Position numbers and translations under genes: made by a program | Part shown: positions 41,525 to 49,129 of the stretch, in pieces | Position numbering within the stretch: the first letter of the stretch is position 1 | How the letters are laid out: each line of letters starts with the position of its first letter | Source of the DNA: Mycobacterium sp. UM_CSW | GTDB lineage: Bacteria; Actinomycetota; Actinomycetes; Mycobacteriales; Mycobacteriaceae | Length of the DNA stretch: 64,000 bases | NCBI RefSeq assembly: GCF_000455205.1 | Contig: NZ_AUWQ01000055.1 | Location: 1 to 64,000 of the forward strand | Direction: 5' to 3' | The notes under the pieces: generated by a model | What the model saw: the letters and a program-made list of their open reading frames with translations, nothing else | What the model was told of the DNA's origin: nothing | Database searches by the model: none

Positions 41525-43207
41525 ATGACATCGCAGGAGTACGACGTCGTCGTGGTCGGGAGCGGCGGAGCCGGCATGGTGGCCGCCCTTGCCGCCGCGC
41601 ACCGAGGCCTTTCGACAGTAGTCATCGAGAAGGCCCCGCATTTCGGCGGCTCCACCGCGCGGTCCGGGGGCGGAGTGTGGATTCCGAACAACGAGGTGCT
41701 CAAGCGCGACGGGGTGAAGGACACGCCCGAGGCGGCCCGGACCTACCTGCACGGGATCATCGGCGACATCGTGGAGCCGGAGCGCATCGACACCTACCTC
41801 GAACGCGGTCCGGAGATGCTGTCCTTCGTGCTGAAGCACACACCCCTGAAGATGTGCTGGGTGCCGCGCTATTCCGACTACTACCCCGAGGCGCCCGGCG
41901 GCCGTGCCGACGGGCGCTCGATCGAACCCAAGCCGTTCAACGCCCGCAAGCTCGGCGCCGACGAGGCGGGGCTGGAGCCCGCCTACGGCAAGGTGCCGCT
42001 CAACGTCGTTGTGATGCAACAGGACTACGTGCGGCTCAACCAGCTCAAGCGGCATCCGCGGGGCGTGGCGCGCAGCTTGAAGGTGGGCGCGCGCACGATG
42101 TGGGCCAAGGCGACCGGCAAGAACCTGGTCGGCATGGGCCGGGCGCTGATCGGGCCGCTGCGCATCGGGTTGCAGCGCGCCGGTGTTCCGGTGCTGCTCA
42201 ATACTGCGCTCACCGATCTCCACGTCGAGGACGGGGTGGTGCGCGGGGTGTACGTTCGCGATACCACCACATCGGATTCCGTTGATCCACAACTGATCCG
42301 GGCCCGGCGCGGCGTGATCTTGGCCAGCGGCGGGTTTGAGCACAACGAGCAGATGCGGGTGAAATACCAACGCGCCCCCATCACCACCGAATGGACCGTC
42401 GGGGCGAAGGCCAACACCGGTGACGGCATCCTCGCGGGCGAAAAGCTCGGCGCCGCATTGGATCTGATGGAGGACGCCTGGTGGGGGCCGACGGTGCCGC
42501 TGGTGGGCGCACCCTGGTTCGCGTTGTCCGAGCGCAACTCGCCCGGGTCGATCATCGTCAACATGTCGGGCAAGCGATTCATGAACGAATCGATGCCGTA
42601 CGTCGAGGCCTGCCATCACATGTACGGCGGCGAATTCGGCCAGGGCCCGGGACCAGGCGAGAACATCCCGGCGTGGCTGGTGTTCGACCAGCAGTACCGC
42701 GACCGCTACATCTTCGCGGGACTGCAACCGGGCCAACGCATCCCGCGCAAGTGGCTGGATTCGGGAGTGATCATCCAGGCCGACACCCTCGAGCAGCTGG
42801 CCGAGAAGGCGGGACTGCCGGTGTCCGACTTCACCGCCACCGTCGAGCGGTTCAACGGTTTCGCGCGCTCCGGCGTCGACGAGGACTACCACCGCGGGGA
42901 GAGCGCCTACGACCGCTACTACGGTGATCCCACCAATAAGCCGAACGCCAACCTCGGTGAGATCAGCCACGCGCCTTTCTACGCCGCCAAGATGGTGCCC
43001 GGGGACCTGGGCACCAAGGGCGGCATCCGCACCGACGTGCACGGCCGGGCGCTGCGCGACGACGGCAGCGTCATCGAAGGCCTTTACGCCGCAGGCAATG
43101 TGAGCGCGCCGGTGATGGGCCACACCTATCCCGGCCCGGGCGGCACCATCGGGCCGGCGATGACCTTCGGCTACCTCGCCGCGCTGCACATCGCGGGGAC
43201 TAACTGA
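41525..43207 (+). CDS. kstD: 3-ketosteroid delta-1-dehydrogenase KstD
   Basis: A 560-residue FAD-dependent 3-ketosteroid dehydrogenase. The ADP-binding GSGGAG loop is near residues 13-18 (VVVVGSGGAGMVAALAAA), GGSTARSGGGVWIP follows, and the C-terminal GNVSAPVMGHTYPGPGGTIG carries substrate-binding residues. It introduces the C1-C2 double bond of ring A, needed for ring B opening. The ATG is taken at 41525, since upstream in-frame codons lie inside the operator and hsaE. No Shine-Dalgarno sequence is present, which supports leaderless translation. Confidence 0.96.
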   Translation: MTSQEYDVVVVGSGGAGMVAALAAAHRGLSTVVIEKAPHFGGSTARSGGGVWIPNNEVLKRDGVKDTPEAARTYLHGIIGDIVEPERIDTYLERGPEMLSFVLKHTPLKMCWVPRYSDYYPEAPGGRADGRSIEPKPFNARKLGADEAGLEPAYGKVPLNVVVMQQDYVRLNQLKRHPRGVARSLKVGARTMWAKATGKNLVGMGRALIGPLRIGLQRAGVPVLLNTALTDLHVEDGVVRGVYVRDTTTSDSVDPQLIRARRGVILASGGFEHNEQMRVKYQRAPITTEWTVGAKANTGDGILAGEKLGAALDLMEDAWWGPTVPLVGAPWFALSERNSPGSIIVNMSGKRFMNESMPYVEACHHMYGGEFGQGPGPGENIPAWLVFDQQYRDRYIFAGLQPGQRIPRKWLDSGVIIQADTLEQLAEKAGLPVSDFTATVERFNGFARSGVDEDYHRGESAYDRYYGDPTNKPNANLGEISHAPFYAAKMVPGDLGTKGGIRTDVHGRALRDDGSVIEGLYAAGNVSAPVMGHTYPGPGGTIGPAMTFGYLAALHIAGTN

Positions 43208-43208
43208 A

Positions 43209-44069
43209 ATGCCGATCGATGTCGACGTCGCGCTGAACGCCGAGCTGGACCCCATCGAATTCTCTTGGGTCAGCAGCGATATCCAGCTCTATCACCTGGG
43301 GTTGGGCGCCGGCTCGGACCCGATGGATCCGCGCGAGCTGCGCTATCTGGTGGACGACACCCCGCAGGTGCTGCCGACGTTCGGCAACGTCGCCGCCACC
43401 TTTCACATGACCAAGCCGCCGACGGTGCAGTTCCCCGGCATCGACATCGAGCTGGCCAAGGTGTTGCACGCCAGCGAGCGGGTCGAGGTGCCCGGGCCGC
43501 TGCCGCCGTCGGGCTCGGCCAAGGCCGTCACCCGGTTCACCGATATCTGGGACAAGGGCAAGGCCGCGGTGATCTGGAGCGAGACGACGGTCAGCGCCCC
43601 GGACGGCACGCTGCTGTGGACGCAGCGGCGCTCGATCTTCGCCCGCGGCGAGGGCGGCTTCGGCGGCGAGCGCGGGCCGTCATCGTCCGACGCCGCGCCG
43701 GACCGGGGCCCCGACCTGGAGGTCGACGTGCCGATCCTGCCGCAGCAGGCGTTGCTGTACCGGCTGTGCGGCGACCGCAACCCCCTGCACTCCGATCCCG
43801 AATTCGCCGCTGCCGCAGGGTTTCCCAGGCCAATCCTGCACGGCCTGTGCACCTACGGCATGACCTGCAAGGCGATCACCGATGCGCTGCTGGACGGCGA
43901 CGCCGGGGCGGTGGCGGCCTACGGCGCGCGGTTCGCCGGCGTGGCCTACCCCGGGGAAACCCTCAAGGTGGGCATCTGGAAGGAGAACGGCCGTTACGTG
44001 GCCACCGTCGTCGCGCCGTCGCGCGACAACGCCGTCGTGCTGAGCGGCGTCGAGCTGGTCCCCGCGTAG
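43209..44069 (+). CDS. MaoC-like enoyl-CoA hydratase (Rv3538-like; ChsH3/Hsd4B)
   Basis: A 286-residue double hot-dog protein. The second half carries the hydratase-2 motif YRLCGDRNPLHSDPEFAAAAGFPRPILHG (near residues 181-209), with catalytic Asp and His. The first half is degenerate. Such (R)-specific enoyl-CoA hydratases act in peroxisome-like beta-oxidation of steroid side chains. It matches the 286 residues remembered for Rv3538, once annotated hsd4B and later linked to side-chain hydration; the name should be confirmed. It begins two bases after kstD and is co-transcribed with it. Confidence 0.9.
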   Translation: MPIDVDVALNAELDPIEFSWVSSDIQLYHLGLGAGSDPMDPRELRYLVDDTPQVLPTFGNVAATFHMTKPPTVQFPGIDIELAKVLHASERVEVPGPLPPSGSAKAVTRFTDIWDKGKAAVIWSETTVSAPDGTLLWTQRRSIFARGEGGFGGERGPSSSDAAPDRGPDLEVDVPILPQQALLYRLCGDRNPLHSDPEFAAAAGFPRPILHGLCTYGMTCKAITDALLDGDAGAVAAYGARFAGVAYPGETLKVGIWKENGRYVATVVAPSRDNAVVLSGVELVPA

Positions 44070-44124: not shown

Positions 44125-45879
44125 ATGGTCGCTGAACGGCAGCCGCCCGAACCGCGTGCGGCCGACGAGCGAACCGCGCTGCGCAGTATTCCGATATTCG
44201 CCGAGATCGACGACGGACAACTCGACCTCCTCACGAGCACCGTCGATCGCCAGCACGTCCCCGCCAACGAGTGGCTCTTTCACTTGGGCGACCCGTCGGA
44301 CGCCATCTATGTAATTGCCTCGGGGCGGTTCGCGGCCGTCGGCCTCGATGGACAGGTGCTTCGTGAGATGGCATCCGGTGATTCGATCGGAGACCTGGGC
44401 GTGATCACCGGCGCCCCTCGCTCGGCCGGAGTACGAGCCCTTCGGGACGGCGTCGTCTGGAGGATCGCCGCTGACACATTCAGCGAGGTGCTCGCCAAGG
44501 CGCCGCAGCTGCAATCGGCGATGTTCCGGGCGATGGCGGTGATGCTGCGCGAGTCACGAGCCGCCACCGTCTCTCGCGGTCGCCGGGTGGTCGGTGTGGT
44601 GTCGACCGGGGATGCGGTCGCGATGCCGATCGTCGACGCGATCGCGGCTCGGCTGAGATCGCACGGACAAGCCGCCGTTGTCGCTCCGCCCGTCGAAACA
44701 ACGGCCGCGGCCAATCATTATGGCGAGCTCGTCGACGCGTTCAGCGAGAGCCTCGACCGTGCCGAGCGAAGCAACGATTGGGTCCTGCTGGTGGCCGACC
44801 GGGGCTCGGGCGATAGCTGGCGACGGTATGTTACCGCGCAAAGCGACCGGGTCGTGGTGCTTGCCGATCAGGCCCGCCCGCCGGAAGCGCTCGAAGCACC
44901 CATCACGCAGGGGCCGGTCCACCTGGTCACTTGCGGCGTCGTGGCGGACCCGACGTGGTGGGATCTGCTGGAGCCGGTCTCGCATCACCCCGCCGACGAC
45001 GACGGCATCGGCGCGCTGGCCCGCAGAATCGCCGGGCGCTCCCTCGGTCTCGTGCTCGGCGGTGGGGGCGCTCGGGGCCTCGCGCATTACGGCGTGTACG
45101 AAGAGCTCACCCGGGCGGGCGTCGTCATCGACCGGTTCGGCGGAACCAGTTCGGGTGCCCTCGCTGCCGCCACCTTCGCGCTGGGGCTGGACGCGCGGGA
45201 TTGCACCGCGGCGGCACGGAAATACGTCGCGGAGACCAGGCCGGTCAGCGACTACACGATCCCCGCGATAGCCCTCACGCGAGGTCGCCGTGTCGACCGT
45301 CTGATAGAGGGATTCTTCGGCAGCAGCACCCTGATCGAGCAGCTGCCGAGGGAGTTCTTCTCCGTCTCCACCGACATCATCACGGGCGACCAGATCATCC
45401 ATCGGCGGGGGCTGCTGTGGGTCGCCGTGCGCGCATCGATCTCGATACCCGGCCTCCTGCCGCCGGTGCAACATCGCGAGCGGCTCCTCGTCGACGGCGG
45501 ACTGCTGAACATCCTGCCGGCCGACGTGATGTGCGCCGACCCGGACGGCGAAGTGATATGCGTCGATCTGCGCACAACGTGGGTGCCGTCGAAGGGCTTT
45601 GGCCCGCTGCCGGCAAAGCTTCAGCCTCCCGCGTTCATCCGGCGGCTCGTGACCGGCACGGACGTAGCCCTGCCACCACTGCAAGATACGTTGCTCCGCA
45701 GCGTCGAACTCGCGGCCCCCAAGTGGAACCTGCGCGAGCTCCCCCGAGTCACGGCGATCATCGAGCCGGACGTCTCGGCGATCGGTCCATTGGACTTCAA
45801 AAACATCGACGCCGCCCTCGATGCCGGGCGGAAAGCGGCCCAGGCGGCTCTCGAAGCGCAACCGGCTCTCGCTCGCTGA
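44125..45879 (+). CDS. cNMP-binding-domain patatin-like phospholipase (NTE family)
   Basis: A 584-residue protein. Residues about 22-140 form a cyclic-nucleotide-binding domain (IPIFAEIDDGQLDLL, then the phosphate cassette GDSIGDLGVITGAPRSAGV, residues 85-103, with Arg99). Residues 150-285 are a Rossmann-like middle region (RRVVGVVSTGDAVAMPIV). The patatin domain has the oxyanion loop GGGGARG (312-318), nucleophile Ser342 in GTSSG, and Asp457 in VDGG. It resembles M. tuberculosis Rv2565 in length and domains. The cassette Glu is replaced by Asp90. It neighbours an FHA-cyclase gene, suggesting cNMP-controlled lipid hydrolysis. Confidence 0.88.
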   Translation: MVAERQPPEPRAADERTALRSIPIFAEIDDGQLDLLTSTVDRQHVPANEWLFHLGDPSDAIYVIASGRFAAVGLDGQVLREMASGDSIGDLGVITGAPRSAGVRALRDGVVWRIAADTFSEVLAKAPQLQSAMFRAMAVMLRESRAATVSRGRRVVGVVSTGDAVAMPIVDAIAARLRSHGQAAVVAPPVETTAAANHYGELVDAFSESLDRAERSNDWVLLVADRGSGDSWRRYVTAQSDRVVVLADQARPPEALEAPITQGPVHLVTCGVVADPTWWDLLEPVSHHPADDDGIGALARRIAGRSLGLVLGGGGARGLAHYGVYEELTRAGVVIDRFGGTSSGALAAATFALGLDARDCTAAARKYVAETRPVSDYTIPAIALTRGRRVDRLIEGFFGSSTLIEQLPREFFSVSTDIITGDQIIHRRGLLWVAVRASISIPGLLPPVQHRERLLVDGGLLNILPADVMCADPDGEVICVDLRTTWVPSKGFGPLPAKLQPPAFIRRLVTGTDVALPPLQDTLLRSVELAAPKWNLRELPRVTAIIEPDVSAIGPLDFKNIDAALDAGRKAAQAALEAQPALAR

Positions 45880-46027
45880 GCGTCGGATACGATTACCAGC
45901 TAACAGCTCAGCATCTTCAGATGGCAGACGCTTAGTGTGTGCACAGGGTGGTCACGGCGGGCGGGGCAGACAACGACGGGTCTCGCTCGCACACCCGGCC
46001 GTTCGAGTGCGGCGAGGCCGCTAGGCG

Positions 46028-46975
46028 ATGCGCTCCGACTGGTTGGACAAGCCGCAGGCCAATCTGGTCATGCACTTGAACGGCGGCGAGAAAATCGTGC
46101 CGATCTTTGATCAACTATTCGTCGGCCGGCAGTGCGCGGGCATCGACGAAGCGCGCCGACTGGTTATCCCGGACCCGAACATCTCCCGTAACCACCTCGA
46201 GATCCGATTGGACGTCGTAACCGACCGCGCTTACCTCATCGACACCAGCACCAACGGAACGTTGCTCAACGGCATGCCGCTGGAGCGCGCCGTGCAGGTC
46301 CCCATCAAGCCCGACGACCAGATCTCGATAGGCGACGTGGTGCTGATCTTCCGGTCGGACCGGTTCAAAACCGCGGGGTTGACCAACACCAGCCCGACCC
46401 TGACCCGGATCGCCGAGGAGACCATGGTCATGGTGGTCGGCGATATCACCACCTACTCGACGATCTCGGAGGTCACCGACAACCGGGTGATCGCCCAGAG
46501 CCTGAACTATCTGTGGCACGACCTAAACCAGGTGCTGCGTGCCCACCGCGGCACACTCAACCATTACGCCGGCGATGCGCTGTATGCCGTCTGGGAGCTG
46601 CGGACGATTCCAAGGGCCAATGAGCTCGCGATCGACTTCGCGCTCGCCGCGAACCGGAGGGTCGAGGAGCTCGGGCCCACACTCCCGCTGCGTAGCCCGG
46701 ACGGCTCGCCGATCCGCATGGGCTGGGGGGTGGTGCAGGGCCGGGCCGCGATCGCGGCAATGACGAGAACGGTCACGGCCGTGATTGGCGACGCGACCAA
46801 CGTGGCGTTCCGGCTGGCCGGCATCGCCGGGCGGGCCGGGCGCCCGGCCGTGATGGTCAGCACCAGCGTTCACGCCGCCGCCGAGGCGCAATACGTTTGG
46901 GGCGACTCCGAGCAGGTGGAGATCAAGGGCCGGCGCGGAATGGAGACCGTCTTCCCGGTTGTCGCACGCGCGTAG
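46028..46975 (+). CDS. FHA-domain class III nucleotidyl cyclase with non-canonical substrate residues
   Basis: A 315-residue protein. An FHA domain (about residues 28-110) has GRQ (33-35), SRNH (53-56) and STNGTLLNG (74-82), the phosphothreonine-binding loops. A class III cyclase domain (about 130-312) keeps both metal Asp residues (Asp139 in VGDI, Asp183 in AGDA) and the transition-state Asn258 and Arg262 (NVAFR). By eye the substrate-specifying Lys and Asp are replaced by His179 and Ala251, so its product may not be cAMP, or activity may be low. It lies 148 bases after the cNMP-patatin gene on the same strand. Confidence 0.83.
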   Translation: MRSDWLDKPQANLVMHLNGGEKIVPIFDQLFVGRQCAGIDEARRLVIPDPNISRNHLEIRLDVVTDRAYLIDTSTNGTLLNGMPLERAVQVPIKPDDQISIGDVVLIFRSDRFKTAGLTNTSPTLTRIAEETMVMVVGDITTYSTISEVTDNRVIAQSLNYLWHDLNQVLRAHRGTLNHYAGDALYAVWELRTIPRANELAIDFALAANRRVEELGPTLPLRSPDGSPIRMGWGVVQGRAAIAAMTRTVTAVIGDATNVAFRLAGIAGRAGRPAVMVSTSVHAAAEAQYVWGDSEQVEIKGRRGMETVFPVVARA

Positions 46976-46990
46976 CTGAACCCTATGCGT

Positions 46991-47016
46991 CGAACGTGCG
47001 GCTAGCCGCACGTTCG
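46991..47016. terminator. Perfect CTAG-centred palindrome at a convergent junction
   Basis: A perfect 26-base inverted repeat (left arm CGAACGTGCGGCT, right arm its complement) centred on GCTAGC at 47001-47006. It sits 15 bases after the cyclase stop and contains the TAG stop of the convergent DUF559 gene (47002-47004). A likely bidirectional terminator lacking a U-tract. Confidence 0.6.
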
Positions 47017-47847
47017 GCGGGCCCATGCGGCCCGGACGCGACCAATAATGTCGGCCGGCCGGTCGGCGGCCACTACCCGGATGACGATCCACCCGACTCG
47101 CTCGAGCCTTTCCAATCGCCGGATGTCCCAGGTGTATTGGCGGCGATCGTTGCGGTGTTGCTCGCCGTCGTACTCCACGGCGACTTTGACCTCGTCCCAT
47201 CCCATATCCAAATATGCGAAGGCCCTGCCGAACTCGTCGAGCACCGGGATTTGTGTCTGGGGCCTCGGCAGGCCGGCCTCGATCAGCACGAGGCGAAGCC
47301 ATGACTCTTTGGGCGACTGCGCCCCGGGATCAAACAGGTCCGCGGCTCGGCGTGCTCGCGCAATGCCTCGGCGCCCGACGTATCTGCGGGCCAGCAGCTC
47401 GACATCAGCCGCTTTGATTTCCGTCGCTGCCGCGAGAGCGTCGATCCCTGCCACTGCGGTCATGGTCGGGTACCAACAGCCGAGGTCCAGCGCCGTCCTC
47501 GGCGGCGACGTAACCCCCAGACCGCCGATGGTTTCGATTTCATCCGCCGCGACGGCGTCTCGGTGCAGCTGTATGCCCGCCGAGCGATGGTGGTTGTCGT
47601 GGATTAGTTCCACGACTCTGCTGTCATCGACCCAGTTGCTTCCGTGCAACGCGGCGGCGGAGAACCCCGCCACGACGCCGCGACGGCCCGTCCACAACCA
47701 CCCGGCCTTCGCGCGCACCGCGGCGGTGAGCTCGGCATCGCGATCGATGTATACCCCTCGAAAAACGCGGTGGTAGCGCGTTTCCAATTGACTCTTGGTC
47801 ACCAGTCCACACGCGATGGCTTCGCTTCCTAGAAATGGCTCACCCAT
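47002..47847 (-). CDS. DUF559/Vsr-like endonuclease-fold protein with AbiEi-like N-terminus
   Basis: A 281-residue protein. The N-terminal half resembles transcriptional/antitoxin AbiEi-type folds (LVTKSQLETRYHRVFRGVYI, a winged-helix-like start, then WLWTGRRGVVAGFSAAALHG). The C-terminal region AVEYDGEQHRNDRRQYTWD followed by RRLERLERVGWIVIRV matches the DUF559/very-short-patch-repair-like nuclease fold, with candidate acidic residues in EYDGEQH. This two-part family is common in actinobacteria and its role is unresolved. No toxin partner (AbiEii) is adjacent. It may be a housekeeping orphan or a remnant of a mobile defence cassette. Confidence 0.7.
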   Translation of the reverse strand: MGEPFLGSEAIACGLVTKSQLETRYHRVFRGVYIDRDAELTAAVRAKAGWLWTGRRGVVAGFSAAALHGSNWVDDSRVVELIHDNHHRSAGIQLHRDAVAADEIETIGGLGVTSPPRTALDLGCWYPTMTAVAGIDALAAATEIKAADVELLARRYVGRRGIARARRAADLFDPGAQSPKESWLRLVLIEAGLPRPQTQIPVLDEFGRAFAYLDMGWDEVKVAVEYDGEQHRNDRRQYTWDIRRLERLERVGWIVIRVVAADRPADIIGRVRAAWARRTCG

Positions 47848-47959: not shown

Positions 47960-49129
47960 CTAGCCGAGGATCAGGCCCGATGTGGGTACGCCCGTACCCG
48001 CCGTGACGAGGACGTGCTCGACGTCGGGCACCGGGTTGACCGATGTCCCACGCAATTGCCGCACACCCTCCGCGATGCCGTTCATGCCGTGGATGTAGGC
48101 CTCCCCGAGCTGACCGCCGTGGGTGTTGATCGGCAGCCGGCCGCCTACCTCGATGGCGCCGTCGGCGATGAAGTCCTTCGCCTCGCCGCGACCGCAGAAT
48201 CCCAACTCCTCCAACTGAATCAGCGTGAACGGAGTGAAATGGTCGTACAGGATGGCGGTCTGGATGTCGGTCGGCTTGAGACCGGATTGCTGCCAGAGCT
48301 GCCGGCCCACCACGCCCATCTCGGGCAGACCGAGTTCGGAGCGGTAGTAGCTGACCATCGTGTATTGGTCGGGACTGGCGCCCTGAGCCGCCGCCTCGAT
48401 GACGGCCGGCCGCTGCTTGAGGTCACGCGCGCGCTCCACCGATGTCACGACCAGGGCCACCGCACCGTCGGTCTCCTGGCAGCAGTCCAGCAGCCGCAGC
48501 GGCTCGGCGATCCACCGCGAATTCTGGTGGTCCTCAATGGTTATCGGCTTCTCGTAGAAGTATGCCTTGGGGTTCTTGGCGGCGTGCTTGCGGTCCGCCA
48601 CCGAGACCGCACCGAAGTCGCGGCTCGTCGCGCACGACCAGTGCATGTACCGCTGCGCGATCATCGCGACCTGCGCGGCCGGCGTCGAGAGCCCGTGTGG
48701 GTAAGAGAACGAATTGTCCGCCGCGGTCGAATCGGCCTGTACGCCGGCATTTCCCACCAGCCGGGTCTGCACCTGCCCGAAGCGCTGGCCGGAACGCTCG
48801 TTGAACGCCCGGTAGGCCACCACGACGTCCGCCAGTCCGGTCGCGACAGCCGCCGCGGCATGCGCGACGGTCCCGCACGCGGCACCCCCGCCGTAGCCCG
48901 TCTGGGCGAAGAACCTCAGGTCACCGATGCCGGTCGCCCGCGCCACGGCGGTCTCGTTGTTGCTGTCCATCGTGAACGTCGTGAGCCCGTCGACGTCGGA
49001 CGGGCTCAAACCGGCGTCGTCCAGCGCATCAAGGACCGCCTCGGCCGCAAGCCGCAGCTCGCTTCGGCCGGAATTCTTCGAGAAGTCGGTAGCGCCAATG
49101 CCGACGATGGCGGCCTTACCCGACAGCAT
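47960..49129 (-). CDS. ltp2: Steroid side-chain retro-aldolase Ltp2
   Basis: A 389-residue thiolase-fold aldolase. It cleaves the 17-hydroxy-C22 CoA ester to androstadienedione-type C19 steroid and propionyl-CoA, in complex with the DUF35 domain of ChsH2. Visible segments include QTGYGGGAACGTVAHAAAA (nucleophile-loop region), YDHFTPFTLIQLEELGF (residues near 295, typical of Ltp2 aldolases) and INTHGGQLGEAYIHG. Its ATG overlaps the chsH1 stop by one base. It ends the KstR-controlled cyp125 operon. Confidence 0.93.
   Translation of the reverse strand: MLSGKAAIVGIGATDFSKNSGRSELRLAAEAVLDALDDAGLSPSDVDGLTTFTMDSNNETAVARATGIGDLRFFAQTGYGGGAACGTVAHAAAAVATGLADVVVAYRAFNERSGQRFGQVQTRLVGNAGVQADSTAADNSFSYPHGLSTPAAQVAMIAQRYMHWSCATSRDFGAVSVADRKHAAKNPKAYFYEKPITIEDHQNSRWIAEPLRLLDCCQETDGAVALVVTSVERARDLKQRPAVIEAAAQGASPDQYTMVSYYRSELGLPEMGVVGRQLWQQSGLKPTDIQTAILYDHFTPFTLIQLEELGFCGRGEAKDFIADGAIEVGGRLPINTHGGQLGEAYIHGMNGIAEGVRQLRGTSVNPVPDVEHVLVTAGTGVPTSGLILG

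Follow-up and report, generated by a model that had tools for sequence, protein, structure and literature searches.

The DNA analysed here, a stretch of 64,000 nucleotides from Mycobacterium sp. UM_CSW (contig NZ_AUWQ01000055.1, positions 1 to 64,000; in the following, the window), contains two adjacent genes on the forward strand. The first encodes a patatin with a cyclic-nucleotide-binding (CNB) domain, named PAT below; the second encodes a fusion of an FHA domain with a class III nucleotide cyclase, named FHA-cyclase. A first-pass annotation had read them as a possible module in which a kinase signal, sensed by the FHA domain, alters a cyclic nucleotide pool that gates a lipase. The two genes, their domains and the catalytic codons of PAT, identified from open reading frames (ORFs) and Pfam, are:

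44125..45879, + strand: cNMP-binding patatin (PAT), 584 residues (ORF and Pfam)
44251..44499, + strand: CNB domain of PAT, residues 43-125 (Pfam cNMP_binding, 4e-18)
44578..45039, + strand: middle part of PAT, residues 152-305 (without Pfam match)
45049..45528, + strand: patatin domain of PAT, residues 309-468 (Pfam Patatin, 1e-25)
45148-45150 and 45493-45495, + strand: codons of Ser342 and Asp457 in the patatin domain
46028..46975, + strand: FHA-cyclase, 315 residues (ORF and Pfam); it begins 148 bp after PAT
46121..46333, + strand: FHA domain, residues 32-102 (Pfam FHA, 5e-13)
46424..46954, + strand: class III cyclase domain, residues 133-309 (Pfam Guanylate_cyc, 8.6e-6, 25.9 bits, cut-off 21.9)

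The domain content of PAT is that of the NTE-like cNMP-binding patatins, namely a CNB domain and a patatin domain with the GxSxG motif and the DG[GA] dyad. All 21 aligned sequences share Ser342 and Asp457, and the catalytic Ser and Asp of these motifs were kept in 61 of 61 distinct CNB-patatins. In the phosphate-binding cassette of the CNB domain, Arg99 is kept and the Glu is replaced by Asp90; among the CNB-patatins, the Arg occurs in all 60 that possess this region (one fragment at a contig end lacks it), and the acid is either Asp or Glu. PAT is a candidate for cyclic nucleotide binding. Pfam and the alignment bore out the CNB domain, the patatin domain and both catalytic residues as annotated; the supposedly Rossmann-like middle part has no Pfam match. 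In an AlphaFold model it consists of strands alternating with helices, with block means of the predicted local distance difference test (pLDDT) mostly between 73 and 88; the model as a whole is poor (mean pLDDT 53) and was not used further.

The downstream gene lies where the annotation had placed an FHA and class III cyclase fusion, and both of its domains were recovered with Pfam. Conservation was assessed in 51 distinct FHA-cyclase loci: 41 named ones from a scan of genome contigs, the window, and further genomes, with identical loci removed and some close kin among the remainder. Phosphothreonine-binding FHA domains carry the motif GR...SRxH...NG; the corresponding residues G33, R34, S53, R54, H56 and N76 are kept in 51/51 proteins, which places them among FHA-domain proteins with a predicted ability to bind phosphothreonine. 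Equally invariant (51/51) are the cyclase residues D139 and D183, which are the metal-binding aspartates, and the transition-state residues N258 and R262. A structure model of the FHA-cyclase (pLDDT 78) found class III cyclases as its best Foldseek matches (E about 1e-11), namely CyaC, Cya2 and RhGC, with Ma1120 ranking lower. By these two pairs of residues and the modelled fold, the protein is predicted to be a class III cyclase. The positions choosing the base are different: purine cyclases hold Lys or Glu at position 179 and Asp, Thr or Cys at position 251, whereas the FHA-cyclases have mostly His (44/51; Y in four, E, S and A in one each) and Ala (47/51; S in two, T in two). H179 and A251 align to Glu and Cys of 6sir, and the family has neither the Lys/Asp pair of ATP-specific nor the Glu/Cys pair of GTP-specific class III cyclases. 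As the catalytic residues are kept and the base-choosing pair is unusual, the FHA-cyclase appears to be an active enzyme, although the usual rules do not tell which nucleotide it would make.

Among 248 genomes surveyed in the genus, 22 contain relatives of the patatin (at least 65% identity) and 32 the FHA-cyclase. Both families occur in 19 genomes, the patatin alone in three and the FHA-cyclase alone in 13 (Fisher 3.6e-17, uncorrected for kinship). Here and in the wider scans, a few first-look candidates were scored per genome (five for the patatin and in the order and phylum scans, up to nine for the FHA-cyclase in the genus). Frequent separation of the two genes in relatives had been named beforehand as a possible refutation of the module; the genes are adjacent in 18 of the 19 genomes having both, and the idea was not refuted. 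The exception is G015, where they lie on separate contigs. Ten of the adjacent pairs are on the same strand and eight are head to head. The pairing is not accidental. Beyond the genus, a scan at E 1e-20 detected the FHA-cyclase family in 11 of 397 genomes of the order, which represent two of 85 genera (the second being that of G576, from another family), and a scan of 396 genomes of the phylum at E 1e-40 detected it in two, which are again members of this genus. Among named genomes, distant members occur in a Pseudonocardia (50% identity) and in an Actinomycetota metagenome-assembled genome (48%), and the closest in Mycobacterium sp. E796 (97%) and E183 (94%). The family is mainly mycobacterial and scattered among species, with rare distant members. 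Two damaged copies came to light: a second FHA-cyclase at G244:C1:1047778-1048581, which is 47% identical, contains one in-frame stop and lies near the intact gene, and a patatin fragment comprising the final 117 residues at G242:C1:4889181-4889531, where related loci have a complete patatin gene in head-to-head orientation to that of the cyclase.

The association extends from the patatin to CNB proteins in general. A CNB protein lies within 5 kb of the FHA-cyclase in 37 of the 51 loci (within 2 kb in 36) and a Ser/Thr kinase within 5 kb in 23; 48 loci have one or the other and 12 have both. The genome of the window (6.39 Mb, 186 contigs) contains 34 places with class III cyclases, nine CNB genes and 18 Ser/Thr kinase domains above cut-off. 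From the latter two counts, the chance per locus was estimated at 1.4% for a CNB protein and 2.8% for a kinase, assuming independent loci and uniform spacing. As a control, the 33 other cyclase places of this genome were inspected; a CNB protein lay within 5 kb at one of them, where it is the CNB-MscS channel of the Rv2435c/Rv2434c-type pair treated below, and a kinase at one. For CNB proximity the comparison with the FHA-cyclase loci gave Fisher 4e-11; distances were taken from ORF to ORF in the 51 loci and from domain to domain for the other cyclases, where a limit of 8 kb still yielded one CNB protein. At ten of the 51 loci less than 5 kb is available on one side (less than 2.6 kb at eight of these), and some partners may have escaped notice there. 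Three loci have neither a CNB protein nor a kinase. They form one clade, in which the FHA-cyclase adjoins a lipoprotein containing NHL repeats (by Pfam in two loci); in two of the three the contig stops short on one side, and in the remaining one a kinase is found 6.6 kb away.

The partners vary in kind. Gene calls in the fetched loci are rough owing to GC bias, and each partner type was checked with Pfam in one example. CNB-patatins, MFS-CNB-patatins and a protein made of two CNB domains, a C39 peptidase and an ABC transporter were identified in this way; their sole common part is the CNB domain. In M. iranicum (L142), one flank of the FHA-cyclase carries a glutaminase-STAS-CNB protein and an MFS protein with two CNB domains, and the opposite flank a kinase. 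The Pseudonocardia locus combines its FHA-cyclase with a CNB-patatin (confirmed by Pfam, 36% identical to PAT), a CNB-aldehyde dehydrogenase and a redox-CNB protein, with a kinase 5.4 kb away, and in G576 a PIG-L-CNB protein is located 3.1 kb from the FHA-cyclase. Of the 11 CNB domains examined in linked effectors, 10 retain both acid and Arg in their phosphate-binding cassette, the exception being the second CNB domain of the M. iranicum MFS protein. Neighbouring kinases include plain kinases, a kinase-STAND protein and a kinase-cyclase-AAA protein; those of the divergent type of locus were identified by an in-house profile only. In L150 (9029-10915), a TIR domain is fused to a Ser/Thr kinase that adjoins the FHA-cyclase.

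On a tree of the cyclases, the ten partner labels, which we assigned ourselves, require 11 changes compared with 32.8 in shuffles. The loci resembling the window, termed sterol type, form one clade (support 100), as do those of the divergent type (97); the kinase-only label changes five times, and two separate clades of cyclases have the ABC exporter as partner. The patatin tree likewise unites the sterol type (100), but its branching otherwise differs from that of the cyclase tree. Strict co-inheritance of patatin and cyclase was not supported by the two trees; the pairs did not simply travel together, and re-pairing or separate transfer has to be allowed for. What stays the same from locus to locus is the FHA-cyclase, with the lipase as one output among several that are exchanged.

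Further features of the window concern the steroid genes around the pair and the gap within it:

41525..43207, + strand: kstD, 3-oxosteroid 1-dehydrogenase, upstream of PAT (above NCBIfam cut-off)
43209..44069, + strand: MaoC hydratase, ending 55 bp before PAT (Pfam)
45918..45939, + strand: 22-bp element between PAT and FHA-cyclase, present in sterol-type loci
47002..47847, - strand: DUF559/AbiEi-like gene (DUF559/MTES_1575) between the pair and ltp2 (Pfam, PADLOC)
47960..49129, - strand: lipid-transfer protein of the ltp2 type, right border of the insertion (above NCBIfam cut-off)

The pair was said to sit inside a sterol locus, and it does, with kstD before it and a lipid-transfer gene, which we take to be ltp2, after it. 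The genes kstD and MaoC, the latter presumably hsd4B-like by its position, are 1 bp apart; PAT follows on the same strand, and because it sits just behind them, it may share their transcript. MaoC immediately precedes PAT in 11 of the 13 sterol-type loci; of the other two, one ends with its contig and one has a differing gene call. The spacing of MaoC and ltp2 was determined by searching each gene in 41 genomes of the genus. It amounts to 15-80 bp in four relatives (G005, G012, G036, G039), to about 1.0 kb in seven genomes, which is space enough for the DUF559 gene, to 0.8 kb in G026, to 3.0 kb in G001 and to 3.9 kb in the window; in the remaining genomes the two genes are farther apart, on separate contigs, or not found. 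Given this spacing, the sterol position is most simply explained by an insertion of the pair, about 2.9 kb long, in one clade comprising 13 loci. The DUF559 gene itself is about as long as the spacer of the seven relatives.

In the gap between the two genes (45880-46027), neither a sigma-70 promoter nor a terminator was called on the + strand. The 22-bp element was recognized with up to four mismatches in 9 of the 13 sterol-type loci and in none of the other fetched loci scanned. A regulon search with it returned a single copy in the whole genome at up to three mismatches.

Loci elsewhere provide hints that the patatin branch may serve lipid stores or envelope lipids. M. szulgai (L086; G113:C174) and M. 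angelicum (L087; G216:C108) contain a tight run of four genes, with junctions of -4, +6 and -4 bp: a cyclase-AAA gene is followed by one for an MFS-CNB-patatin, then by that of a wax ester synthase/diacylglycerol acyltransferase and finally by a CNB-patatin gene. Pfam supports the acyltransferase in L086 and, for the cyclase, the L095 protein of the same cluster. This run is a candidate operon for regulated storage-lipid turnover that does without an FHA-cyclase, and such loci indicate that cyclases lacking FHA can also neighbour CNB-patatins. In L095 the gene after an MFS-CNB-patatin encodes a fatty acid desaturase, and this protein cluster recurs in L091 and L102. M. simiae (L065, by Pfam) and, by likeness, L138 and L148 have MmpS/MmpL genes in the vicinity of the FHA-cyclase. 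In L094 and L096-L099, a protein of about 1478 residues is encoded near MFS-CNB-patatin genes; in L096 it comprises a zinc ribbon, a Ser/Thr kinase, an AAA domain and a C-terminal cyclase. The genes in between are presumably DegV-like.

Sequence analysis and comparison of the loci show which domains are present, that their catalytic and binding residues are retained, that the genes recur side by side and that effectors are exchanged. We consider it reasonably probable that the pair represents one version of a modular signalling cassette, leading from a kinase via the FHA-cyclase and a cyclic nucleotide to a swappable CNB effector, which is here a lipase. A Ser/Thr kinase, or a phosphoprotein, would be read by the FHA domain, whose engagement would turn on the attached class III cyclase; the product would be read by the CNB domain of the adjoining effector, the putative receptor. 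In the window, its binding would raise the lipase activity of the patatin, and as the effector is a patatin lipase, the output would be lipid hydrolysis. The module as first proposed thus withstood the comparison of adjacencies (18/19 for the pair, 37/51 for CNB proteins) and turned out wider than claimed, whereas its link to cholesterol catabolism is weak and local: the pair does lie in a steroid locus, but it is a single clade (13 of 51 loci) that has this position, and other pairs are found elsewhere. Its kinase arm fared similarly; kinases within 5 kb and the invariant FHA residues speak for it in the family, but not in the sterol type. As the insertion is confined to one clade and no kinase is nearby, the sterol and kinase links of the window pair are ones that we infer. 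A bolder version, in which the kinase-gated FHA-cyclase makes a private, possibly non-purine cyclic nucleotide read by the adjoining plug-in effector and thus constitutes a new kind of relay, seems doubtful to us.

Several observations weigh against the cassette. The CNB cassette of PAT carries Asp instead of Glu, and 14 of the 51 FHA-cyclase loci lack a CNB protein within 5 kb. None of the 13 sterol-type loci, the window included, has a kinase within that distance. Because the loci are related and the control with other cyclases comes from one genome, the p-values are too favourable. In the cyclase tree the sterol type clusters with the other same-strand type and one ABC type (97), whereas in the patatin tree it clusters with the divergent type (90, not starred). 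Furthermore, nine fetched loci carry a patatin of the same family without an FHA-cyclase, and in five fetched loci a cyclase-AAA family adjoins MFS-CNB-patatins; the pairing is not private to FHA-cyclases.

The latter point is shared by an alternative in which the cyclase contributes to a general pool of cAMP, this pool has several readers including the CNB-patatin, and adjacency reflects co-regulation only. The many cyclases and CNB genes of the window genome agree with it, as do a cyclase beside a CNB-MscS channel in that genome and the other cyclases neighbouring MFS-CNB-patatins in relatives. We regard it as unlikely, however, since CNB proteins are near 37/51 FHA-cyclases versus 1/33 other cyclase places of this genome, and since the partners swap. 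A degenerate cyclase domain in a protein acting as an FHA scaffold would account for the exchanges of Lys to His and of Asp or Thr to Ala at the base-choosing positions and for the weak Pfam score, which falls just under the cut-off in the distant L201 protein; the invariance of the metal and transition-state pairs and the Foldseek matches to class III cyclases make this improbable. That the pair is a dedicated module of sterol catabolism, its lipase being expressed from the kstD promoter and releasing stored sterol or acyl chains, might be read from the compact succession of kstD, MaoC and PAT, which recurs as MaoC before PAT in 11/13 loci. With the sterol position limited to 13/51 loci, pairs located elsewhere, and MaoC and ltp2 only 15-80 bp apart in four relatives, this explanation is very improbable.

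Patatin effectors destroy the membrane in CBASS, and the pair could analogously be a Pycsar-like anti-phage system, in which a cyclic pyrimidine is made on infection and the CNB-patatin destroys the membrane. The two share a two-gene logic, in which a class III-like cyclase is accompanied by an effector that is fused to a CNB domain and whose output can be exchanged; the window pair displays this arrangement. The PADLOC profile PycTIR matches the CNB part of PAT (2e-13) and PycC the cyclase part (2.8e-10), the next gene (47002-47847) matches AbiEi profiles (2e-12), and both the TIR-kinase beside one FHA-cyclase and the unusual base-choosing residues fit. The scan covered three window proteins and was no systematic search for defence genes; its matches are limited to shared domains. 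The FHA-cyclase system differs from Pycsar in its FHA domain, its kinases, and its patatin and metabolic outputs, and the sterol-type loci lie in a metabolic cluster. Moreover, the FHA-cyclase family had no match in 50,697 phage records (E 1e-10) or 72,556 plasmid records (E 1e-20). PycC enzymes depart from the purine pair too, with other residues; according to PMC11224242, the pyrimidine pocket is formed by Y50/D94/R97 in BcPycC, F60/K104/F109 in AnPycC and F100/R142/Q144 in EaPycC. The FHA-cyclase residues V137, H179, A181 and G182, positioned by spacing from the metal Asp rather than by structure alignment, match none of the clade B, D or E sets given there. On these residues and the absence from phage and plasmid records the Pycsar assignment was rejected, and we hold it to be rather unlikely.

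Returning to the cassette, its parts have counterparts in mycobacteria and elsewhere. PAT has the same domain order as the Rv2565-type proteins, the NTE-like cNMP-binding patatins of mycobacteria. Unpaired relatives (L078, L080) adjoin a 1108-residue protein (DUF2126, checked in L078) and one of about 880 residues, as in the succession Rv2565-Rv2566-Rv2567; PAT differs in lying beside an FHA-cyclase in a steroid locus. A cyclase adjoining a CNB protein is likewise seen in the Rv2435c/Rv2434c-type pair with a CNB-MscS channel, present at C7 of the window genome; unlike the linked effectors, this channel has lost the acid and the Arg of its CNB domain. FHA and adenylyl cyclase are combined in one protein elsewhere, for example in cyanobacterial CyaD; the link to CNB effectors and kinases appears to be new. 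Rv2565 itself appears in a table row of PMC10865251. In the literature pairing FHA with cyclase, most subscription papers being out of reach, no title or abstract concerned a mycobacterial FHA-cyclase; PMC7291507 (Arthrospira) and PMC8195603 contain both words and could mention such a protein, and an earlier mention is possible in PMC2447327, a 2004 survey of actinobacterial cyclases.

The FHA-cyclase family offers candidate wires from kinase to cyclase to receptor, with the partners often in one locus. Its effectors have been exchanged in evolution, among them lipase, exporter, glutaminase and dehydrogenase, and in the bolder version phosphorylation signals would thereby be converted into locally gated enzyme outputs. 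If the cassette is true, threonine phosphorylation would be joined to cyclic-nucleotide gating of lipid hydrolysis, and the family would provide compact systems of two or three genes that lend themselves to direct tests of substrate, ligand and output.

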